Shown piece by piece: positions 643 to 58,107 of a DNA stretch of 64,000 bases. The notes beneath the pieces were generated by a model, which saw nothing but the letters and a program-made list of their open reading frames with translations, made no database searches and was not told where the DNA came from. A program made the position numbers and the translations under genes. This stretch comes from Liquidambar formosana (taxonomy: Eukaryota > Streptophyta > Magnoliopsida > Saxifragales > Altingiaceae), in NCBI GenBank assembly GCA_039720395.1, contig CM077834.1, positions 4,732,607 to 4,796,606 of the forward strand, read 5' to 3'. The first letter of the stretch is position 1, and the number at the start of each line of letters is the position of its first letter.

Positions 643-3600
643 CTAATTTGGTTGTTTCTTTGGATACTCCCTCGGTCCAAATATGGTTGATCCAATTCTT
701 ACATTGGTACTGCCCATTTCAATCTGCAGAAATCAGAAAGCATTATTCATCAGTAGCATAATCCGTTGAGTTGATACTCTAACCTTGCTAAAATTGTGCT
801 GTGGATGGCACGATAGAAAGCATATCCAGAAAATCATTTAAGAAAATTACCAATGCTCATGTTTGGAGCAGGAAAAGTTTGATACTTGGTTCAAAACAAA
901 TACTAAAACCTACTAAATGAAGGAACAACACTTCCTCTACTTTGCCTTGTGACACGGCCCGCGCGCGAGAATGACCCATGGAGGGGTTTTATAGTGGAAA
1001 GTGGCAACTCTCCTACATGGTGGAAGATTCTAGAGTTCTCTAGGAGACTCTAGACTTGTAAATATGTAGAGACTTCTAGAATAGGGCCTAGAATAGTCTA
1101 TATCTAGAAAGTTCTATTGAGGAGGTGGGAGAAGCTTCTAGAGAATGCTCTAGAACCCTCCTAGCATTTATTACATTCTAAAATAGTCCATAGGAGCTTA
1201 TAAATAGGAGGTAGGCCTCATTTGGCCAAGCCAACCTGGAAGAGTTGGAAGCATTGTAGCTCTTGAGTGTTGTAAAGCTTACTTAGTGCAATACAAGTAA
1301 ACTTTCCACAAGTGTCCGAGTGTGTTTTCCTTCTTTCCAAGCTTAGAGGTGTCGAGTAGGCTTACTTAAGGGTTCACGGAGAGGGCGTGAAGCTTAAGTG
1401 CCGCACGGGTATTAGGTCGAAACATCGAGCCCGTGACAGTTGGTATCAGAGCAAGGTTGAGCCAAGGTTGCAAGGCGTGTGACTAAGGTGAAGACGGCGA
1501 TGGCAAATACCTCTAACCTAACGGAGGAGCTTCTCAACAAGGAACGGGAGGACCCTCACAATACTGGCAGAGGCAGGAGGGACAAGTCGAAGGACGTGGT
1601 GTCATCTATGGAGGCACGGTTGGTCAAGATGGAGACAGCCGTGGCTGACATTGCAATGCGGTTCGAGGAGGACGTCCCAAGTCAGGCGACCCTTGAAAGC
1701 ATGGTGGAAGACCTTAAGGGCGAGATGTTGGGAGCCTTGAACTCCATGGCTGACAAACTTCGACAGGAGGTTCAAGGCCAATTGGATCGAGTGTTTGCGG
1801 AGCTGGCCTCATTCCGCAAGGAGATGAAGGAAATGAAGGGAGATTGGGTACTTTGCAAGGAGGCGGTGGTCAGTCGGGCTCACATGGTACGTGGGGCGCC
1901 GAAGATAGAGGCTCCAAGGCCCAAAGCCTTTGATGGCAGGAGGGATGCGAAGGAGCTAGACACCTTCTTGTGGAACATCGAGAGATACCTCCGACACATG
2001 GGTGTGGAGGACAATGCAGGGAAGATCTCTACGGCTAGCTTGTTCCTCACCGACAATGCTCTCTTATGGTGGCGTCGACGAAGCATTGAGATCGAGCAAG
2101 GTACGTTCACCCTTGAGACTTGGGATGAGTTTAAGAAAGATATTAAGTTACACTTCTACCCCGAGAATGCCCGCTTTGAAGCAAAAGAGAAGTTACGATG
2201 GCTAAAACAAATGGGCACTGTCCGGGAATATGTCGCAGAGTATAGCAATCTCTTGTTCGAAATTCCGGACATCAGTGAGGAAGATAAATTTGTGTTCTTT
2301 ATAAGTGGGCTCCAACCCTGGGCAAGGCAAGAACTGCAACGGCGTGGGGTGCAGAACTTGTCTTCGGCTATAGCGGCTGCGGAGTCACTTATAGAGTTCA
2401 AGAAGAGTGATAGGAGACCCAAGGGGTGGGAGGATGGTGATAGCAATGGTGGGGGAGACAAGGATGTCGAAAGAAAGACGGAATCGAGGAGGCCATCCCC
2501 GAGAAGGGACTCAAGGGGAGATAAGGGTAAGGATCTGTCCAAGCCCAGGGCGTGCTACTTTTGCGATGGACCACACTTCTTGAGAGACTGTCCTAAGAGG
2601 GCGGCCCTAAATGCTTTGGCGAAGCAGCATGAGGAGGAGGAAGAGCCAACTGAGGAGGCAAGGGTGAGTTCTCTTCAGTTGCTCAATGCGGCAGAAGCCA
2701 AAGTGGGGAAACCAAAAGCCCCAACCAAGGGACTGGTATACATCGACACAGTGGTGAAGGGGAAGACATCCCGTGCCTTGGTCGATACAGGGACGACACA
2801 TAACTTCCTAGACGTGAAGGAAGCCAAGCGGTTGGGCATGGAAGTCACCAAAGAGAAGGGATTGCTGAAGGCAATCAACTCAGCTGCCAGGCCGACAGAG
2901 GGTGTAGCTTATGGGGTAAAGCTATACATCGGTGCGTGGAGTGGGTTAGTCGACTTCTCGGTGACGCATATCGGTGCTTGGGATGGACTTCTTTGACAAG
3001 GTAAAGGCCTTCCCTATTCCCTATGCCAATAGCTTGTGCATAGCAGAAGAAAGAATGTCGTGTACGGTGCCGATGATAAGACAAGCCAATACCAAGTCGA
3101 AGAAGATAACGGCCATGCAGCTCTCGGACAAAGGGGAGACGATGTACTTGACGACTTTGAAGGGAAAATGGGCTTCCCAAAAGTCGGCGCAGGTCATACC
3201 CAAGGAGCTGCCAAAGAAACCACCAGGTCAAGCCAAGGAAGTGGACGATATTCTGGCAGAAGGCGTGGTGCACAGGAAGGGAATGCCAGAATATACGGAG
3301 TACTTGGTGAAGTGGAAGGGACTACCAGAGTCCAAGGCGAGCTGGGAACGAGAAGAGTCCTTATGGCAATACAAGGATCATATCAAGAGGTTCAAGGTGC
3401 GATTGCGCGACGAGGACGTCGCAGGATTGGGTGGGGGAGAATGACACGGCCCGCGCGCGAGAATGACCCATGGAGGGGTTTTATAGTGGGAAGTGGCAAC
3501 TCTCCTACATGGTGGAAGATTCTAGAGTTCTCTAGGAGACTCTAGACTTGTAAATATGTAGAGACTTCTAAAATAGGGCCTAGAATAGTCTATATCTAGA

Positions 3601-6600
3601 AAGTTCTATTGAGGAGGTGGGAGAAGCTTCTAGAGAATGCTCTAGAACCCTCCTAGCATTTATTACATTCTAGAATAGTCCATAGGAGCTTATAAATAGG
3701 AGGTAGGCCTCATTTGGCCAAGCCAACCTGGAAGAGTTGGAAGCAATGTAGCTCTTGAGTGTTGTAAAGCTTACTTAGTGCAATACAAGTAAACTTTCCA
3801 CAAGTGTCCGAGTGTGTTTTCCTTCTTTCCAAGCTTAGAGGTGTCGAGTAGGCTTACTTAAGGGTTCACGGAGAGGGCGTGAAGCTTAAGTGCCGCACGG
3901 GTATTAGGTCGAAACATCGAGCCCGTGACACTTGGAAGTCATTTTCCTCAATTTTAAGCACCTCATTCATCTCATTTTAAGTATTTTACATCAATAACAA
4001 CAAAAACAAAAACAAAAACAAGAAGTCCTCGGCATAGAACATGTTTGTAAAATTACCAATGTTCATGTCTGTAAAATCATTAAAAGAAAGGCTTGGGAAA
4101 CATCTAAAAGACATGAGAATGGCTACCAGCAATCAGGGACCTAGGAGAGGTACGGGAAATATATTTCTAATGAATTTCGGAAATGATTTAATGTAAATTG
4201 GGAAAGTTCCAAGATGTGTCAGCAAAGCTTTTGGGCGTCTCCAAAACGATTATCAGGCACTTCACAAGCATTTCTGAAAAGCAAAAGGCTTTTCAAAACA
4301 TTTTCCATGAAAATTTCAGAAGTTATAACCCACTTCAGAAATGCGCTCCGGAAGATACACTCATACACATATCCCACCACTACCAAACACTAGGATTTTT
4401 TAGTGACTATGGTGTTATCCAATCATGATTTCAGACAGCATATTTATCAAGAAGTTCAAATGTCCAGAACTATGGTAGTCTGAAGTGAGATATATTTTCA
4501 TTCTAACACCTGCTAGCAAAAGATCAAATCATCAAGAAAATGGAAATTCGTTGTGGTTCATTAGGATCTAGGAGTAAGTTTGAACACAGCATAGAGTCCT
4601 TACCGCTTGCTCAAAGTCACCAGACATGCCCATGGACAGCTCACACTGCTCCTCTGCTATTCCGAGCACCTTGCAAGTCTCAATTCTACAGTTTAACAGC
4701 GTCTGTTGCATCACAACCACAGAATGGTGTCTCAGAAAATAGATTAACAAGTGCACAGGGAAAGGGAATGATAGGAAAGTATTAATCTGAATATAGTAAT
4801 GGGTGTATCAACTTTTTATGAAAACACAATGAATCAAATAGCATTTTAATATGCAAGTTTATCACCAGCAACAAAAATGGAAATGAGTTCATAATATTTG
4901 AAACTTTATGATAATTAGTGACCTAATTCAAGTAATTGTAAAAATAAATAAATCAAATTAAATAACAGTTTCATCTATAAAACAAAAAGTAGACTTATTT
5001 CAAAAGCTCTGAAAACAATAAAGAATTTGATCATCATGTGGTTCCCAAAGATTCTCATAATAAGTTTGGCATTCTCACCCTGAAGTTCTCTGGAGTGGAG
5101 GTATAGTTGGCCATCCCTATGGTCATTAAACCAGAAAACTTGAGATTTGGGCAGCCCAGCTGAACATGTTTAGCAAGCTCTACACACCCTGATGGTTCGA
5201 CACCAGATTTCGCTGAAATAAAGTCACAGTAAGCAATCAACTGATCAATATTTGCCCCTTTCATAAAGTAAAAGCAACCTCAAAATTTTGGTAAAGGTGT
5301 TAAAAGCATTAGGACAATATGTTAATGTCGTGCACTTGACTGTAAGTCAGTCATGGCCTACAATATTGGGTGAGGTAAAGTGATTTGATAGTGTTAGGCA
5401 TATGCTCCCTGAGGCAGTCATTGACTGAAAATTAAGGACGTCAAAGTAGTCGTGTAAACTATCACAAATCTAAAATGCAAATTATTTCCTCTCTGCAAGT
5501 AAGAATTGGGAATGAACGAGCAAGTAGCAATTACAAAAGTTGTGATTTAAGCGGTTAGATCAGATACCACTTGATAATAGACAAGAAAAATCATGCTTTC
5601 ATGGGGCTTTTTCCTTCTTTTTTTTGCCTTTCTTTTTTGGTTGGGGAGAGAGGGAGAAAGAATCTGATGTTTTGAGCAATTCAGCACTATGGATCTCATT
5701 CTTAAGTCCAACCAATCTCCCTGTTGGATATCAAAGAAAGATGGGTAGTGGTTGATATTTTACATACATGCTTCTCCGCTGGTATTCACTTGGACCAAAA
5801 CCTTCAAAGGCTTCCTTCCAATGCTTGAAACTACACGATCAAGATGATTTGCAAGCTGCAGATCATAAAAAAGTATAATAACTGCCAAATTGTCATTGTG
5901 AGTGAAATGCATTGAACAACTCATTAAGGTTTTTACCTTTTCATTATCTACACCCTCAACCATTGCAAGATTTGGGACAGCAGCTGCAAATAGGAAGTAA
6001 AGCCACAACATTTGCCATAAACCTCTCTCATGCAAAATAAATAAAAGGGGGGGTGGGGGGTGGGGAGCAGTAGAACAAGCTAGACACAATATGTTTCATA
6101 ACAGAATAATCAAGGAGGTGAGAAGATGTATCACTTTACACACATGTGCAACCGCACCATGCACACACATCCAATTCTCACAAATCATTTCTCGCTATTA
6201 AACATATTGCAAATTCTCAAGATTCATGCTCATAAGGTATGACTAAAGGTTTTCCCCACACCTTCTACCAACTGCAACTCGCCTGCCTTCTCCATGGGCA
6301 AGGGACCGTTTTTGTTCAGGATATAAGTATTACTAAACGCAACACGACATGGGCAGAGTTCCATTCCATAACTATTCAGAATAATTCAGGAATTTTAGAA
6401 TTAATTAGAGCATTATTCACAGTATTCAACATCTTCTGGCATAATTTCGGAATTATTGAAGTATACAAACAAAATTCAGGATTTGTCATTGGATGAGAAG
6501 ACAGGGATAAGTTCATGAATTTTGGGAATAATTGAGATAACTCTAAATTATGAAGTAATGGAAATAATTCCAAGCAGGAAAAGTAACATGAGTTCAAACC

Positions 6601-49300: not shown

Positions 49301-49563
49301 CATATTATAATATGACTGTCTTACGAGCGAAACTAATGAAAAATAAATAAATTAATTAATTAATTCTCCGGCGGGGAAGGGACGCAACCCGTCGTTGTAA
49401 CGCTAATTTGACCACCCTCTTTGGGCAAACATTTTTTTATTGGGGGATTATAAAAGAAAAAAAGGATTAAAAGGGTAGGTGAATGAACCTCTAACCCGTC
49501 AAGGCGACCCATTCAGAAGAACAGCACCATCACATTTACCAGGGAAGAGTCAGAACTCGAAAC

Positions 49564-51590
49564 ACAAATACACAGTAGATTCAAATTAATCCGGGCCACT
49601 AGACCAAGTGATGCCGTGGTAAACGTTGTTTTTCAATAATGAACACAAGTGGGCTGAAAATAAGAGAGACAAGCTTGCCAAAATGGAACAGTGTCTTGAA
49701 AATAATTAATGCCACATGCAATATATGTGAAGAGTCAAGAGAGGAAGGCCTCGTGCTGGTCCTAATTAACAGCCCATGGAATTCATTTTCCTTCCAAAAG
49801 TGTTGCCATCACGGTATAGTCAAGATTGCGACCGTAAATATTTGGCAGTCTCTTGTTTTGATCTTATCAATTTGTAAAATTTAGCTAGTCTATGCCTCTT
49901 CCTTGACAATGAGAAATGAGGAAAGAGGATGACAAAAATCTAATATTGAATTCCACCTTAGACATATTCATTTCATTATTTTAGAATTGAAAAATAAAAC
50001 CCTTGATACTACTTTACTTCTGGCTTCTAAATACGGAAAACGCTAGTCTTCATTAGCTTACACTTTTATAATCTCATATTAATTACCTAATATGATAGTG
50101 AAATGGCATAACATGACATACTATGTATGTCAATTATTGTGCTGACATTGGCATTATCTTTTCACTCATCGACTCAATCGTATAATCGATGAGAGATGAT
50201 AAAAGTGACCTTGAAAATAACTACACTTATTAAAATCAAATGAAAAATGTTATAGCTTAGAAAGAGCTCCGAAATTATGTATAATTTTTTTCCACTCCTA
50301 ACTCTTACTAAGCCGCAGCCTGCCAAGAATGCATCCTTTGAATAATCTAAGAAGGAAATTTCAAATAAGGGATTTGAAAAGAGACCTTTTAGCTAGTGGG
50401 TCCACAATGAGTTGGATTATCAACTTTTCAGCCATGAAAAAGAGTAGAGGCTAATATAGTGTGTGAATACTTATAGCTATACATGCAAGGATTAACAATA
50501 ACGTGCGGCAAGTTTTTCCCACACACAGGCCTTTCAGCTATTGAACAAATGATTAGGTGCTGCCAAGTCTTCCCATGCGTAGACCCCTAGCCTCCCTCTC
50601 TCTCTCTCTCTCTCAAGCACGCACCCATGTACACGCACACTCACCAAATTTGGCCATGTTTCACCTGTCTTTGTTATTCTTACGTTGCTGTCGTTCGATT
50701 CTATAAAGGAATTAGTTTCCAAAAATGCTCTTTTCCAAAACTATATATATAAAATCGAAATATGCGGTTTTCAATAGTTTCATTTATCTTCGGCAGAAAA
50801 TAAAAATCCAAAACATCATCTAAAGAACGTTTTAAAAAGGAGTTTTCGAAAATCCGTTTCCAAACATGCTTTCTACTTTGTTTATTTTTTTATTTTTTTT
50901 TTGCCACCCAAGAAGATAAAACATTTTGGGAGCACAGGCCCTAAGTTGTTTTGAAAATAATGTCACATGGGTAGAAGGGAAGAGAGGAAGGTATTGAATT
51001 CCTTTCTAACAGCCCAGAGAAATTCATTTTCTTTCGCCTCTTGGGAGTCAAGATTGCCGACAGCGTATGCATGTGACAGCCTCTTGTTTTAATCTTATTC
51101 CAAGGGAGTAGCTACAGAGATAGCCTTGGACATTTAGGGCACATGACTTTGGTAGATAGTTGCCTCTTACTTTTCAATGTTCGATAATGGAAAAAAAAGG
51201 GTGAAGGAGACTGATAAAAATAGTGAATTCTGCCTCAAATACAACAACCTTTTTTTAAAAAAGAAAATTCTAATTTTAGAGGTGCAAGATATCACAAAAA
51301 GAAAGAAAAAATATTGATTAGGCTAAGGGAAGATAATTACAGTTTTGTCCGAAATACTACTAACTTTTTAACAATGACTATTAATTGTAATTATTTTTCT
51401 GTAGGCTGACCAATCTAAAATTCCCCCCAAAAAAAGAAAGAACAACACGTTTGCTTTTTGAAGAAAATCTCATTTATTCCTTTGCCTATGCCCAAAATAA
51501 CAATTTTTGTTTTTCAAAAGATACTTCTCAAGCATAATTATTAATATATGATTCGAAAAAATACAGGACGTCATGCATACATAGTACAAA
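49564..51590. repeat. Tandem duplication, unit A (about 2.0 kb)
   Basis: Begins near AAATACACAG and ends near CATACATAGTACAA. Its whole length is matched in order by unit B (51597-55014) once two insertions in B are removed. By eye identity is roughly 85-90% with small indels. Contains CT and CA microsatellites (about 50597-50640). No conserved open frame, so not evidently a duplicated gene. Confidence 0.8.
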
Positions 51591-51744
51591 GATACAAATA
51601 TAAATACACAGGAGATTCAAATTAATCTGGGCCACTAGACCAAGTGATGCCGTGGTAAACGTTGTTTTTCAGTAGTGAACAAAAGTGGGCGGAAAATAAG
51701 AGAGACAAGCTTGCCAAAAAGTAATAGTGTCTTGAAAATAATTA

Positions 51745-52587
51745 TGGGGACTTTGGCCACAAGTCCATAAACTTAGACTTGTGCAGTCATAAGTCTATCA
51801 TAAAATCTTATGTAGCCAAAGGTCCCTCTTAGATATTTTCAGACGATATTACCCCTTCATATTATGTAACAAAAGGTTCCTCTTAGAAAGTTACAGATAA
51901 TCAATGTAACTGTTTTTTTAAATATTTTTTTATACATAATTTTATATTCATCATAAGTCTTTTTCCTAATTTTTCCAAAAAATAAAAAATAAAAAAAATC
52001 AATTAAATCTAAGCAAACATCTACTTGTAACTGAAGTATGTACTGAACCCATAGAAAAATAGTTACATGAAAAAAATTACTTTTAAGTCAATTGTGACTA
52101 AATTTAGTCACAAAATATTTAAGTCTTACAAATTTTTAGTTTCAAACACATCAATTTAACTGATTCGATAGTTACATCTATTAAATTTAATAATTTTGTA
52201 TGGGAAATTGTACAAAATTGAACCCACATTAAAATAGTTACATGTTTATTTATTTTAAAACCAATACATGTAAATATGTAATCAATGTAACTATTTTTTT
52301 TTATACATAATTTTATTTTCATCATGCGTTTTGTTTCGAAAAGCTCGACGAATAGATTTCAAATATATAAATTTTATTGGAAATCGATATCTAAATCAAA
52401 AGTTATGTCATTTTAAAATTTGAAAACAAAAAATAACACTTAAGGGTAAACTTGACTTTATGCATATACCACGGTTATAAAAGTAAACTCATTTTACTTA
52501 AAAGTGGACTTATGGCTTCATAAGTTTGTTGCATAGACTTATGCCTCTATAAGTCCTATAAAAATATACTTTTCGCTAATTTCCCCA
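51745..52587. mobile_element. MITE-like element nested in unit B
   Basis: 843 bp with short inverted ends TGGGGA and TCCCCA, flanked by ATAATTA at 51738-51744 and 52588-52594. Unit A has the empty site (AAAATAATTAATGCC), which confirms a clean insertion with a 7-8 bp target duplication. The ends share AAGTCC and CATAAGTCTAT-type words in inverted order. Inside, a GTAACT...ATACATAATTTTAT block occurs twice (about 51905-51957 and 52276-52324). No coding capacity; superfamily not assigned. Confidence 0.75.
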
Positions 52588-53626
52588 ATAATTAATGCCA
52601 CATGCAACATATGTGAAGAGTCAAGAGGGGAAGGCCTCAAGGTGGTCCTAATTAACAGCCTATGGAATTCATTTTCCTTCTAAAAGTGTTGCTATCACGG
52701 TATAGTCAAGATTGCGACAGTAAATATTTGGCAATCTCTTGTTTTGATCTCATCAATTTGTAAAATTTAGCTAGTGTTTACCTCTTTCTTGACAATGAGA
52801 AATGAGGAAGGAGGATGAAAAAAATCTAGTCCTGAATTCTACCTTATACATATTCATTTTTACTATTTTAGAATTAAAAAAATAAAATAAAATAAAACCC
52901 TTGATACTACTTTACATACGGAAAATGCTAGTATTCATTAGTCACTTTTACGATCTCATATCAATCACCTAATATGGTGAGAAAATAATGCAGTATGACA
53001 TGTTACGTATATCAATTATTGTACTGACATGGCATTGTCTTTTCACTCATCAACTCAATCATATAATTGATGAGAGACGATAAAAATGACCGTAAAAATA
53101 ACATTACTTTATAGATAATAAATCAAATTAATGCATGCTGCAATGGAAAGAATTAATTCAAATATTTTATAGCTTAGAAAGAGCTGCGATGCGAAATTAT
53201 GTATAATTTTTTCCTCTCCTATCTCCTTCCAAGCCGCAGCCTGACAAAAAAGCACGTTTTGAATAATCTAAGAAGGAAATAAGGGATTTGCAAAGAGACC
53301 TTTTAGCTAGTGGGTCCACGATGAGTTGGATTATCAACTTTTCTGCCATGAAAAAGAGTGGAGGCTAATATAGTGTGTGAGTATTTATAGCTACACATGC
53401 AAGGATTAGTAGTTGCTTGCAGCAAGTTTTTTCCACGCGCGGACCTTTCAGGCTTTTAGCTATTGAACAAATCATTAGGTGCTTCCGAGTCTTCCCATGC
53501 GCAGACGCCTAGCCTCTGTCTCTCTCTCACACACGCACACGCACCCATGAACACGCACACTCACCAAATCAGGTCATGTTTCACATGTGTTTGTTATTCT
53601 TACGTTGTTGTCGTTCGATTCTGATT

Positions 53627-54200
53627 CTTTCTTTCTTCTTTCTTTCTTTCTTTTTTTTTTTTTCTTTTTTTTTTTTTTGGAGAAAAGCCATAAATTTTTA
53701 TAGAAACTAACAATGATATAAATCTATATGAATTTGGTCCCGAATAAAGGGGGACTTCCTCTATTCAGATTTGTACATCATCTAAATCTTTAACAAATCT
53801 AACCAAATTGTGGACTACCATATTACCCATTCTGTACATATGAATAAAAACAGTTGAGAAAAAACAATGTCTAGCCGCCAATTGAATGCCTTCAATAATC
53901 AACTCTACCGACGAAAGATTAGCAACATTCGAATTAATAGCCTTGATGGCCCCTAAACAGTCTCCTTCGAAACTCACCTTGAATAAACTCAAATCCCTCG
54001 TGAAACCAACCGCAAACCTGATTGCCAAAACTTCAACTATTTCCATAGGGAATTGGCCTTACACTCGCTTTGATGCAGCCGCTATAGGTTGACCCTCGAA
54101 ATTCCTGACAACCACATCCACCCCCACATTACCAGACTCGGCAAAAATAGCTCTATTAGCATTGATCTTATAAACCCCTTCAATTCTAAAAACAGAGCAA
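53627..54200 (-). mobile_element. 5'-truncated L1 LINE, RNase H part
   Basis: On the minus strand the translation includes LAIRFAVGFTRDLSLFKVSF, EGDCLGAIKAINS and VELIIEGIQLAARH, the RNase H-like domain of plant L1 LINEs. It ends in a T-rich tract on the plus strand (53650-53680), equal to its poly(A) tail. A stop at about 54047 interrupts it. Inserted in tandem unit B. Confidence 0.75.
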
Positions 54201-54834
54201 TTGTTTTAAAAAGGAGTTTTCGAAAATCAGTTTTCAAACATGTTTTCTACTTTGTTTATTATTATTATTATTTTTTTTTGGCGACCCCAAGAAGATAAAA
54301 CATTTTAGGAGCACAGGCCCTAAGTTGTTTTGAAAATAATGTCATATAGGTGGAAGAGAGGATCGGAGGGTATTGAATTCCTTTCTAACAGCCCATAGAA
54401 ATTCATTTTCTTTCACCTCTTGGGGGTCAAGATTGCTGACAGTGTATGCATGTGAGAGCCTCGTGTTTTAATCTCATTCCAAAGTAGTAGCTACAGAGAA
54501 AGTTGAACAATTCGTACGACTTGGCTTTTGGACATTTAGGGCACATGACTTTGGTACATAGTTGCCTCCTACTTTTCAATGTATAATAATGGGAAAAAAA
54601 AAAAAGGGTGAAGGAGACTGAGAAAAACTAGTGAATTCCGCCTCAAACACAACCACCCTTTTTAAAAATGAAAATTCTAATTTTAGAGGTGCAAGATATC
54701 ACAAAAAGAAAGAAAAAAGATTGATCAGGCTATGGGAAAGATAATTACAGTTAGGTCCAAAATACTACTTACTTTTTAACAATGACTACTAATTGTAATT
54801 ATTTTTCCGTAGGCTAACCAATTAATCTAAAATT

Positions 54835-54851
54835 CCCCCCCCCCCCCCCCC
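54835..54851. repeat. C17 homopolymer
   Basis: Seventeen C followed by an A-run in unit B; the matching place in unit A has only seven C (51423-51429), so it has expanded since duplication or is an assembly artefact. Confidence 0.85.
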
Positions 54852-55014
54852 AAAAAAAAAGAAAGAACAATAGGTTTGCTTTTCGAAGAAAATTTCATTT
54901 ATTCCTTTGCCTATGCTAAAATAACAATTTTTGTTTTTCAAAAGATACTTCTCAAGCATAGTTAATGATATATGATAAAGGAGAACACAGGACATCATGC
55001 ATACAGAGTACAAT

Positions 55015-57193: not shown

Positions 57194-57740
57194 AATGATC
57201 ATGTAAAAGTCAAAATAATACTAAAACGATCCGTAGTTCCGCATTAAATGGTTAAGGCGTTTAGTGTTTACAAGTCTTTTATTTGCAACAACTGATGATA
57301 TGCAGTAGGCGTCCTCAGATGGAGAGACGTGACACCCAAACGTGCTTAGATTGTGGAGGGAGTGATTGCCGGCCCGAATAGTACCACATAAAAAACAGAA
57401 TAAGGACCCATATTGCCTTCTATCAACTTGACTTGGTTCATTAATACGGGATAGGGTTGGCCCTAGGATGGAGCTGGGAGGTCTTGATGGGATTTATAGG
57501 GATTAAAGGGATTTAATTTAATTTTTTTTTGGGTAAACTGGACAAAAGGGATTTAATCTCACACTCTTAGATTTTTAGACTATGGGTTGGAGTCGCTATT
57601 TGAATTCTTCATATAATTTGATCAACCTTCGCCAAATTTCACCGGATTCTTTCCAATTCAATTCCTTTTGTCCATCACTTAGGCATAGTGAATTGATAAA
57701 AAAATAATAATAATAAATAAAAAAATAAATAAAAATAATT
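57194..57740. other. Intergenic
   Basis: No gene or bounded repeat recognised; AT-rich run at the end (57698-57740). Confidence 0.4.
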
Positions 57741-58107
57741 TTAAAAATATTCAAATTCTCTAGCTAGATTTTCCATTTTGGGGCCAAAATTTCTCAAAGT
57801 ATGATTTGAAAGATTGAGAATATACCCGCAACTTTATTAAAGTGAGGCTTTGAGCTAGCTAGGTTGGTTCAAAGTGGGGGCATGAGGTTCACAAGGGGAA
57901 AAAATTCACCCAAAAAAAAAAAATTTAAAAATTTAAAAATATTCAAATTCTCTAGCTAGAGTTTCTATTTTGGGGCCAAAATTTCTCAAAGTATGATTTG
58001 AAAGATTGAGAATATACCCGCAACTTTATTAAAGTGAGGCTTTGAGCTAGCTAGGTACATTGGTTCAAAGTGGCGGCATGAGGTTCACAAGGGGAAAAAA
58101 TTCACCC
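57741..58107. repeat. Recent tandem duplication of about 170-190 bp
   Basis: Copies at about 57741-57911 and 57933-58107. They differ at only a few positions and by a 4-base insertion (ACAT) in the second copy. Separated by an A-rich spacer. Confidence 0.9.

Follow-up and report, generated by a model that had tools for sequence, protein, structure and literature searches.

Heat-shock-element arrays in the LTRs of a Liquidambar formosana Ty3 chromovirus that lacks reverse transcriptase

Introduction

Heat shock factor (HSF)-driven LTRs of plants have been documented, in the accessible literature, for elements of the Copia superfamily, for which ONSEN (ATCOPIA78) is the standard example. The strong HRE of ONSEN consists of four clustered nGAAn sites and is accompanied by a weaker gap HRE, and an origin by duplication of a proto-HRE has been described for it (PMC5059998). 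According to the same source, COPIA37, TERESTRA and ROMANIAT5 of Brassicaceae are also heat-responsive, and LTR HREs have been classed into the 4P, 3P, gap and step types.

In the Ty3 superfamily, heat-raised expression has been reported for PHRE1 and PHRE2 of moso bamboo (PMC8656106) and for LTRs of Cryptomeria (PMC9780303). In the accessible text of the bamboo paper, the terms 'HSE', 'heat shock element' and 'HSF' are absent and 'heat shock factor' occurs once. In the fungus Cryptococcus, putative LTR HSEs and mobilisation at 37 C have been described for TCN3 (Ty3/gypsy), which carries two putative HSEs in its LTR, and for TCN12 (PMC12810828); the accessible part of that article yielded no test of site conservation among TCN3 or TCN12 copies. 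An HSFB2A motif has been noted in Gypsy elements near genes that are raised in an Arabidopsis proteasome mutant (PMC8725346), and TTCTAGAA is named as an HSE in another plant study (PMC10030974).

Here, we describe an LTR element in a 64,000-nucleotide stretch of the genome of Liquidambar formosana (contig CM077834.1, positions 4,732,607 to 4,796,606 of the forward strand; hereafter, the window, to which all coordinates refer). As in ONSEN, a Ty1/Copia element of Arabidopsis, phased nGAAn sites are present in its LTR; unlike ONSEN, the element belongs to Ty3.

Results and discussion

Structure and coding content of the element

The whole element spans 950-3930 of the window, with two 489-bp LTRs that differ from each other at four positions, and it lies in antisense orientation inside the last intron of a minus-strand host gene for a PLP homeostasis protein.

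946..949, strand not applicable: target-site duplication (TSD) CTTG, 4 bp, left copy, identical to 3931-3934
950..1438, plus strand: 5' LTR, TGACA...TGACA, 489 bp, direct repeat of 3442-3930
1199..1206, plus strand: TATA box TATAAATA, read from the sequence
1441..1452, plus strand: primer-binding site TGGTATCAGAGC, read from the sequence, at the same place in sister copies; presumably of the initiator-tRNA-Met type
1500..2996, plus strand: gag-protease reading frame, 498 aa, with matches to Ty3_capsid, Retrotrans_gag and Asp_protease_2
2974..3444, plus strand: chromodomain reading frame, 156 aa, with Chromo PF00385 at about 3238-3396
3430..3441, plus strand: polypurine tract GGTGGGGGAGAA, read from the sequence, with the same or a similar string in sister copies
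3442..3930, plus strand: 3' LTR, 489 bp, with the same HSE array, direct repeat of 950-1438
3931..3934, strand not applicable: TSD CTTG, 4 bp, right copy, identical to 946-949
724..4603, minus strand: last intron of the host PLP homeostasis protein (PROSC/YggS-type) gene, from splice sites and exons

The element encodes a Ty3-type capsid and a C-terminal chromodomain (PF19259, 8.7e-15; PF03732, 5.1e-14; PF00385, 1.5e-11), and the chromodomain frame is out of register with the gag-protease frame in the window copy. No family match to reverse transcriptase (RT), RNase H or integrase was obtained in the window element at E values up to 0.01. The element is a Ty3 (Metaviridae) chromovirus that possesses gag, protease and chromodomain and is devoid of RT and integrase, and its assignment to the Ty3 type in the initial annotation is upheld by the capsid and chromodomain matches.

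A protein from an ENA contig (P0085) shares 140 of 156 residues with the window chromodomain frame and contains protease and chromodomain joined in one frame, an arrangement like that of the window element. Scans of viral and genome contigs with the gag protein yielded no relatives outside this genome that were confirmed by tblastn. Several Malus proteins (P0007-P0012 and P0015) and an ENA protein (P0013), 802-868 aa in size, contain gag, protease and chromodomain families with no RT family listed, in a search limited by protein length that left longer proteins outside. RT-less chromovirus proteins of a similar layout may therefore be present in apple too.

The conceptually spliced host protein matches yeast 1ct5 and YggS 1w8g in PDB, and a Pfam search with two single host exons gave no match. 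Transcription from the 5' LTR would read antisense to this gene. Elsewhere in the window, direct-repeat blocks about 2.0-3.4 kb apart and 86-93% alike occur at 49560-55013 and resemble a tandem duplication, and a 145-bp direct repeat (94% alike, spacing 192 bp) is found at 57720-58056. The window also contains a STIG1 gene, whose best named matches come from various eudicots at about 50-61%.

Amplification without reverse transcriptase

In nine sister elements, the inner region measures 2007-2034 bp and the LTR-LTR distance ranges from 0.002 to 0.036; the distance in the window element is 0.008. Exact 4-bp TSDs were found at 18 of the 28 places examined, including the window. Among the 10 places without an exact TSD, a polypurine tract comes before five and a primer site comes after two, which identifies these as halves of longer structures. 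The family therefore comprises many copies with LTRs and TSDs but neither RT nor integrase, and the non-autonomous nature proposed in the initial annotation is borne out by its amplification in this form. The lowest LTR-LTR divergence among complete copies is 1/501 sites, so that some transposition is recent. The RT-less form itself has moved, in part recently, and must, we infer, have been served in trans.

Galadriel is a chromovirus lineage. Its commonest TSD type is 4 bp (PMC6911290), the single trait by which the present family would fit this lineage. At the 18 exact-TSD insertions (the window and loci within L009-L036), the target has the common palindromic pattern TTGC-CTAG-GCAA, with C before the TSD in 17/18, A/T at TSD position 2 in 18/18 and G after the TSD in 16/18; L028 and L030 show the same target site and are perhaps duplicates. 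This palindrome looks stronger than the slight palindrome preference of targets described in PMC6911290.

An HSE array upstream of the LTR TATA box

Each LTR carries four perfect GAA/TTC dyads and five 3-unit HSEs matching at 8 of 9 bases in the ~180 bp upstream of the TATA box. The perfect dyads of 1023-1206 start at 1023, 1074, 1107 and 1131, and the 3-unit groups start at 1023, 1069, 1102, 1131 and 1143; with a further TTC/GAA position at 1176, the six sites are spread over about 165 bp.

1023..1035, plus strand: HSE S1 GAAGATTCTAGAG (8/9); GAANNTTCTAGA kept in 38/40 LTRs
1069..1081, plus strand: HSE S2 GAGACTTCTAGAA (8/9); perfect GAANNTTCTAGAA here in 18/40 LTRs
1102..1114, plus strand: HSE S3 ATCTAGAAAGTTC (8/9); last TTC in 40/40 LTRs
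1131..1143, plus strand: HSE S4 GAAGCTTCTAGAG (8/9); GAANNTTCTAGA in 38/40 LTRs
1143..1155, plus strand: HSE S5 GAATGCTCTAGAA (8/9); GAANNCTCTAGAA in 30/40 LTRs
1176..1188, plus strand: HSE S6 TTCTAAAATAGTC, TTCTAGAATAGTC in the 3' LTR; TTCTAGAA in 38/40 LTRs
3515, 3594, 3623, 3635 and 3668, plus strand: 3' LTR HSEs at 8/9 (S1, S3, S4, S5 and S6, respectively), by consensus count

The window LTRs thus contain HSEs in the sense of at least three alternating nGAAn pentamers with one mismatch allowed, and the location of the array in the LTR promoter, as originally described, was confirmed. The initial annotation had also reported several groups with three consecutive units; however, no perfect (9/9) 3-unit HSE exists in either window LTR, and the window copy may for this reason respond weakly. 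Nor is the array built on the repeated word that had been assumed, because the full TTCTAGAA occurs once per LTR, and the word that is repeated is TCTAGA, with six occurrences per LTR. As to a unit said to be lost in one LTR and kept in the other, the 5' LTR does have an A at 1181 (TTCTAAAA) where the 3' LTR retains TTCTAGAA, but the converse is also seen: in the 3' LTR, the G that corresponds to 1079 is gone and the S2 equivalent at 3561 is weakened by one base, so that units have been lost from both LTRs at different sites.

The array region of the window 5' LTR (1021-1197) contains no CG and no CHG, a condition found in only 1 of 544 background windows (177 bp, GC above 0.34). Over the same region, CG is absent in 36 and CHG in 15 of 40 aligned family LTRs (see below), and the 40 LTRs have a mean CHG of 0.75, compared with 3.57 when the window array is dinucleotide-shuffled.

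Comparison of the array with chance expectation

Dinucleotide shuffles of 1023-1206 contained on average 0.16 dyads and 0.06 triples, and none of 1000 reached either observed count. For 1021-1197 of the window 5' LTR, the triple count was reached in 0/1000 shuffles that preserve 3-mers and in 2/1000 that preserve 4-mers. Six of the 40 LTRs gave 0/1000 each (3-mer) and 0 to 6/1000 (4-mer) over this region, and their 4-mer shuffles reached the dyad counts in 0 to 22/1000 and the numbers of four-unit groups in 3 to 39/1000. Of 1388 segments, each 184 bp long, scored across the 64 kb, those over the two LTRs rank top with 4-5 triples, and elsewhere at most two occur among the segments listed. The earlier interpretation thus withstood the comparison with shuffled sequence, by consensus count rather than by an HSF matrix. 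A chance origin of the array is ruled out by the dinucleotide, 3-mer- and 4-mer-preserving shuffles.

Across the 40 LTRs, GAA/TTC is the leading trinucleotide pair at spacing 5, with 5.22 per LTR, and the same pair is found at 0.00, 0.07 and 1.43 per LTR at spacings 4, 6 and 7, respectively. AGA/TCT at spacing 3, i.e. the TCTAGA word, is more frequent still (7.12 per LTR). It is therefore conceivable, although improbable in our assessment, that the array is a CTAG/TCTAGA palindrome repeat kept for some other factor or structure, with the HSE phase as a by-product. The frequency of TCTAGA, the commonest arrangement, fits such a repeat; however, the 4-mer-preserving shuffles keep the CTAG and TCTAGA words and yet rarely reached the triple counts of the six LTRs. 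The pattern of base changes among copies, described in the next section, also bears on this explanation.

Conservation of the sites among genomic copies

From 257 first-look candidates for LTR similarity, 40 LTR places, including the two of the window, were scored and aligned, and HSE sites were defined on the window sequence alone. Two pairs of places with the same flanks (L015/L016 and L028/L030) are probably duplicates but carry limited weight, because changes were counted on a tree. The 38 other LTRs are 86-94% identical to the window LTR. Dyads number 4-7 and triples at 8/9 number 3-7 in every one of the 40, of which 38 retain TTCTAGAA at 1176 and 34 retain it at 1074.

By parsimony, the unit triplets have undergone 0.66 changes per site (50 sites), versus 1.54 at the other non-unit, non-spacer positions of 1021-1197 (105 sites), and the rate at positions 1208-1438 is 1.63 (231 sites). 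None of the 176 circular shifts of the unit mask gave a value as low as that of the unit triplets. The conservation of units among family copies that had been anticipated thus held in 40 LTRs against neighbouring positions. The two types of spacer behave very differently: GAAnnTTC spacers show 3.2 changes per site (10 sites; a value equalled or exceeded in 224 of 20000 random draws), whereas TTC-TA-GAA spacers show 0.0 (12 sites). This asymmetry is that stated for HSF-DNA contacts in PMC8379338, with a Y-R dinucleotide between TTC and GAA and a free dinucleotide between GAA and TTC.

The same data can be set against the palindrome explanation. CTAG bases outside HSE units are less conserved (1.31 changes per site) than those inside, where 0.80 changes are found in unit cores and 0.00 in TA spacers. 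The five triplets outside TCTAGA words have a mean of 0.6 changes, two of them do change, and 823 of 20000 random draws are as low; constraint on these triplets is no more than suggestive, and to this extent the palindrome repeat retains some support. However, the outer triplet is unchanged at three of the five sites (1023, 1112 and 1131), across a mostly variable 2-base spacer.

A second sample was chosen by gag. It comprised 93 matches from 840 candidates (86 scored), from which 30 loci were cut out; both LTRs were readable in 20 of these, giving 40 LTRs. The 10 loci set aside consist of eight without one or both junction patterns, two of which belong to the longer family described below, and two without a matching LTR start. 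All 40 gag-found LTRs have at least four dyads and at least three triples at 8/9 (one of them, from L042, is truncated at 361 bp). A perfect triple is present in 19/40 LTR-found and 30/40 gag-found LTRs; a few copies, among them that of the window, are common to both samples.

Another explanation is that the array was the driver of a past burst but has since become neutral, its apparent conservation reflecting solely the youth of the copies. The high identity of the 38 other LTRs to the window LTR and the loss of one site from each window LTR are in line with such a relic, but the HSE sites are conserved relative to their neighbours within the same sequences, and the LTR-LTR divergence reaches down to 1/501. 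We consider this explanation quite improbable.

A longer gag-pol family with its own array

Through gag matches of 68-72% identity, a longer family with gag-pol was identified in this genome; three of its copies (L067-L069) were examined. L067 encodes, over three frames and in this order, capsid and protease; RVT_1 and RNase H; and RNase H, Integrase_H2C2, rve and SH3_Tf2-1. The same parts were recognised by eye in L068 and L069, with a chromodomain-like end in L068, and LTR matches of this family occur as pairs 4.97-5.14 kb apart. The gag-pol region is split over two or three frames in all three copies, and the longer family is thus a candidate helper only. In L067, moreover, 225 bp of the gag N-terminus are present three times in tandem (1502-2176), and an inverted LTR piece lies at 1249-1418.

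The array of the longer family resembles that of the window element or is richer. The LTRs of L068 contain five dyads and eight triples, one of which is perfect (GAATGTTCTAGAA). In its first 250 bp, the triple count was reached in 0/500 shuffles at k = 2, 3 or 4 and the dyad count in 3/500 at k = 4. In the BLAST comparison with the window LTR, the proximal part of this LTR gives an alignment of about 83%; the distal U3 half gives none, yet has triples of its own.

More distant gag matches were represented by 19 loci (L068, L069 and L072-L088; gag identity 43-77%), four of them without a readable primer-site junction. At least three triples are present in the LTR or in the 500 bp before the junction in 13 of the 15 readable loci; L083 and L088 have no triple in these regions. 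In 10 longer-clade LTRs, changes per site are 0.43 in the core, 0.43 in both spacer types and 0.52 in the rest, and 52/200 shifts are as low. A more distant chromovirus, family C (37-38% gag identity), has 0 dyads and 0 triples in its LTRs of about 1.25 kb in two copies. This control, although small, suggests that the array is a trait of the clade of the window and longer families and not of chromoviruses at large.

The LTRs of three RT-less copies are mosaic in appearance. Compared with the L068 LTR, the last 320 bp are 92-95% identical (L043, 302/319; L048, 296/320; L052, 293/320), whereas the distal U3 is 51-54% identical (L043, 54/100; L048, 54/106; L052, 55/106). This contrast could be explained by exchange between co-packaged RNAs as they are reverse-transcribed; alternatively, it may reflect stronger constraint on the proximal part. 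Within the window LTR, the alignment of 1023-1091 with 1131-1193 scores 45, above the best of 1000 shuffles at either k = 2 (40) or k = 3 (44). This suggests that the distal and proximal array halves stem from an old duplication and are offset by about 105 bp.

A possible heat-responsive promoter

Six phased sites upstream of TATAAATA, free of CG and CHG, are what an HSF-driven promoter would need. The U3 of the window LTR is therefore, with fairly high probability, a heat-shock-factor-responsive promoter that would work like that of ONSEN in another superfamily. The earlier interpretation of the array is partly supported, having withstood two of its three refuting conditions, the comparison with shuffles and that among genomic copies. 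Under heat or proteotoxic stress, trimeric class-A HSFs would bind the LTR sites and transcription would start in the LTR. The RT-less element would then supply Gag, protease and chromodomain. RT, RNase H and integrase would come in trans from the longer family, induced simultaneously by the same signal, and both families would be copied in one burst.

HSFs also have roles unrelated to heat. The HSE-like sites may accordingly be real but serve another HSF programme, such as seed or pollen development or the response to oxidative or proteotoxic stress, in which case heat would be a minor trigger. The HSFB2A motif in Gypsy elements near proteasome-mutant-raised genes (PMC8725346) is consistent with this, and no observation made here discriminates between HSF programmes; we regard it as unlikely.

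If the heat-responsive reading of the U3 is extended to the longer family, the gag-pol and RT-less families may form a heat-synchronised pair of helper and parasite, in which one stress pulse acts on HSF-driven LTRs to produce both RNAs. The shared cue would enable packaging and spread, and the LTR exchange would be its trace. We offer this only tentatively, as a possibility rather than an expectation. Such a pair, if heat-induced, would make it possible to test whether a non-autonomous element can spread only when it has the promoter cue of its helper, and the copies that differ in HSE number form a ready-made set in which HSE strength could be related to heat response.

Comparison with known heat-responsive elements

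Membership of the element in ONSEN (ATCOPIA78) is ruled out by its Ty3 capsid and chromodomain. The two nevertheless resemble each other in that, as in ONSEN, CG and CHG are missing from the array region (1021-1197) of the window 5' LTR, a likeness that is weaker in the 40 LTRs (36 without CG, 15 without CHG). An origin by duplication has been described for the ONSEN HRE and is suggested for the window array. They differ in layout, with four clustered nGAAn sites and a gap HRE in ONSEN (PMC5059998) and six spread sites here. Of the two, ONSEN alone has been shown to be heat-induced. Because the element belongs to another superfamily and two related chromovirus copies in the genome have no array, convergence with ONSEN is plausible. 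If heat induction is true, the HSF-driven LTR trait arose outside Copia too.

COPIA37, TERESTRA and ROMANIAT5 are all Copia elements, unlike the window element. In the accessible open-licence literature on heat, HSFs and LTR elements, no conserved HSE array was seen in a plant Ty3 element, nor one common to a plant Ty3 chromovirus family and its RT-less partner. Within this literature, the nearest precedents for the array are the HSFB2A motif in Gypsy elements of Arabidopsis and the putative HSEs in a fungal Ty3 LTR.
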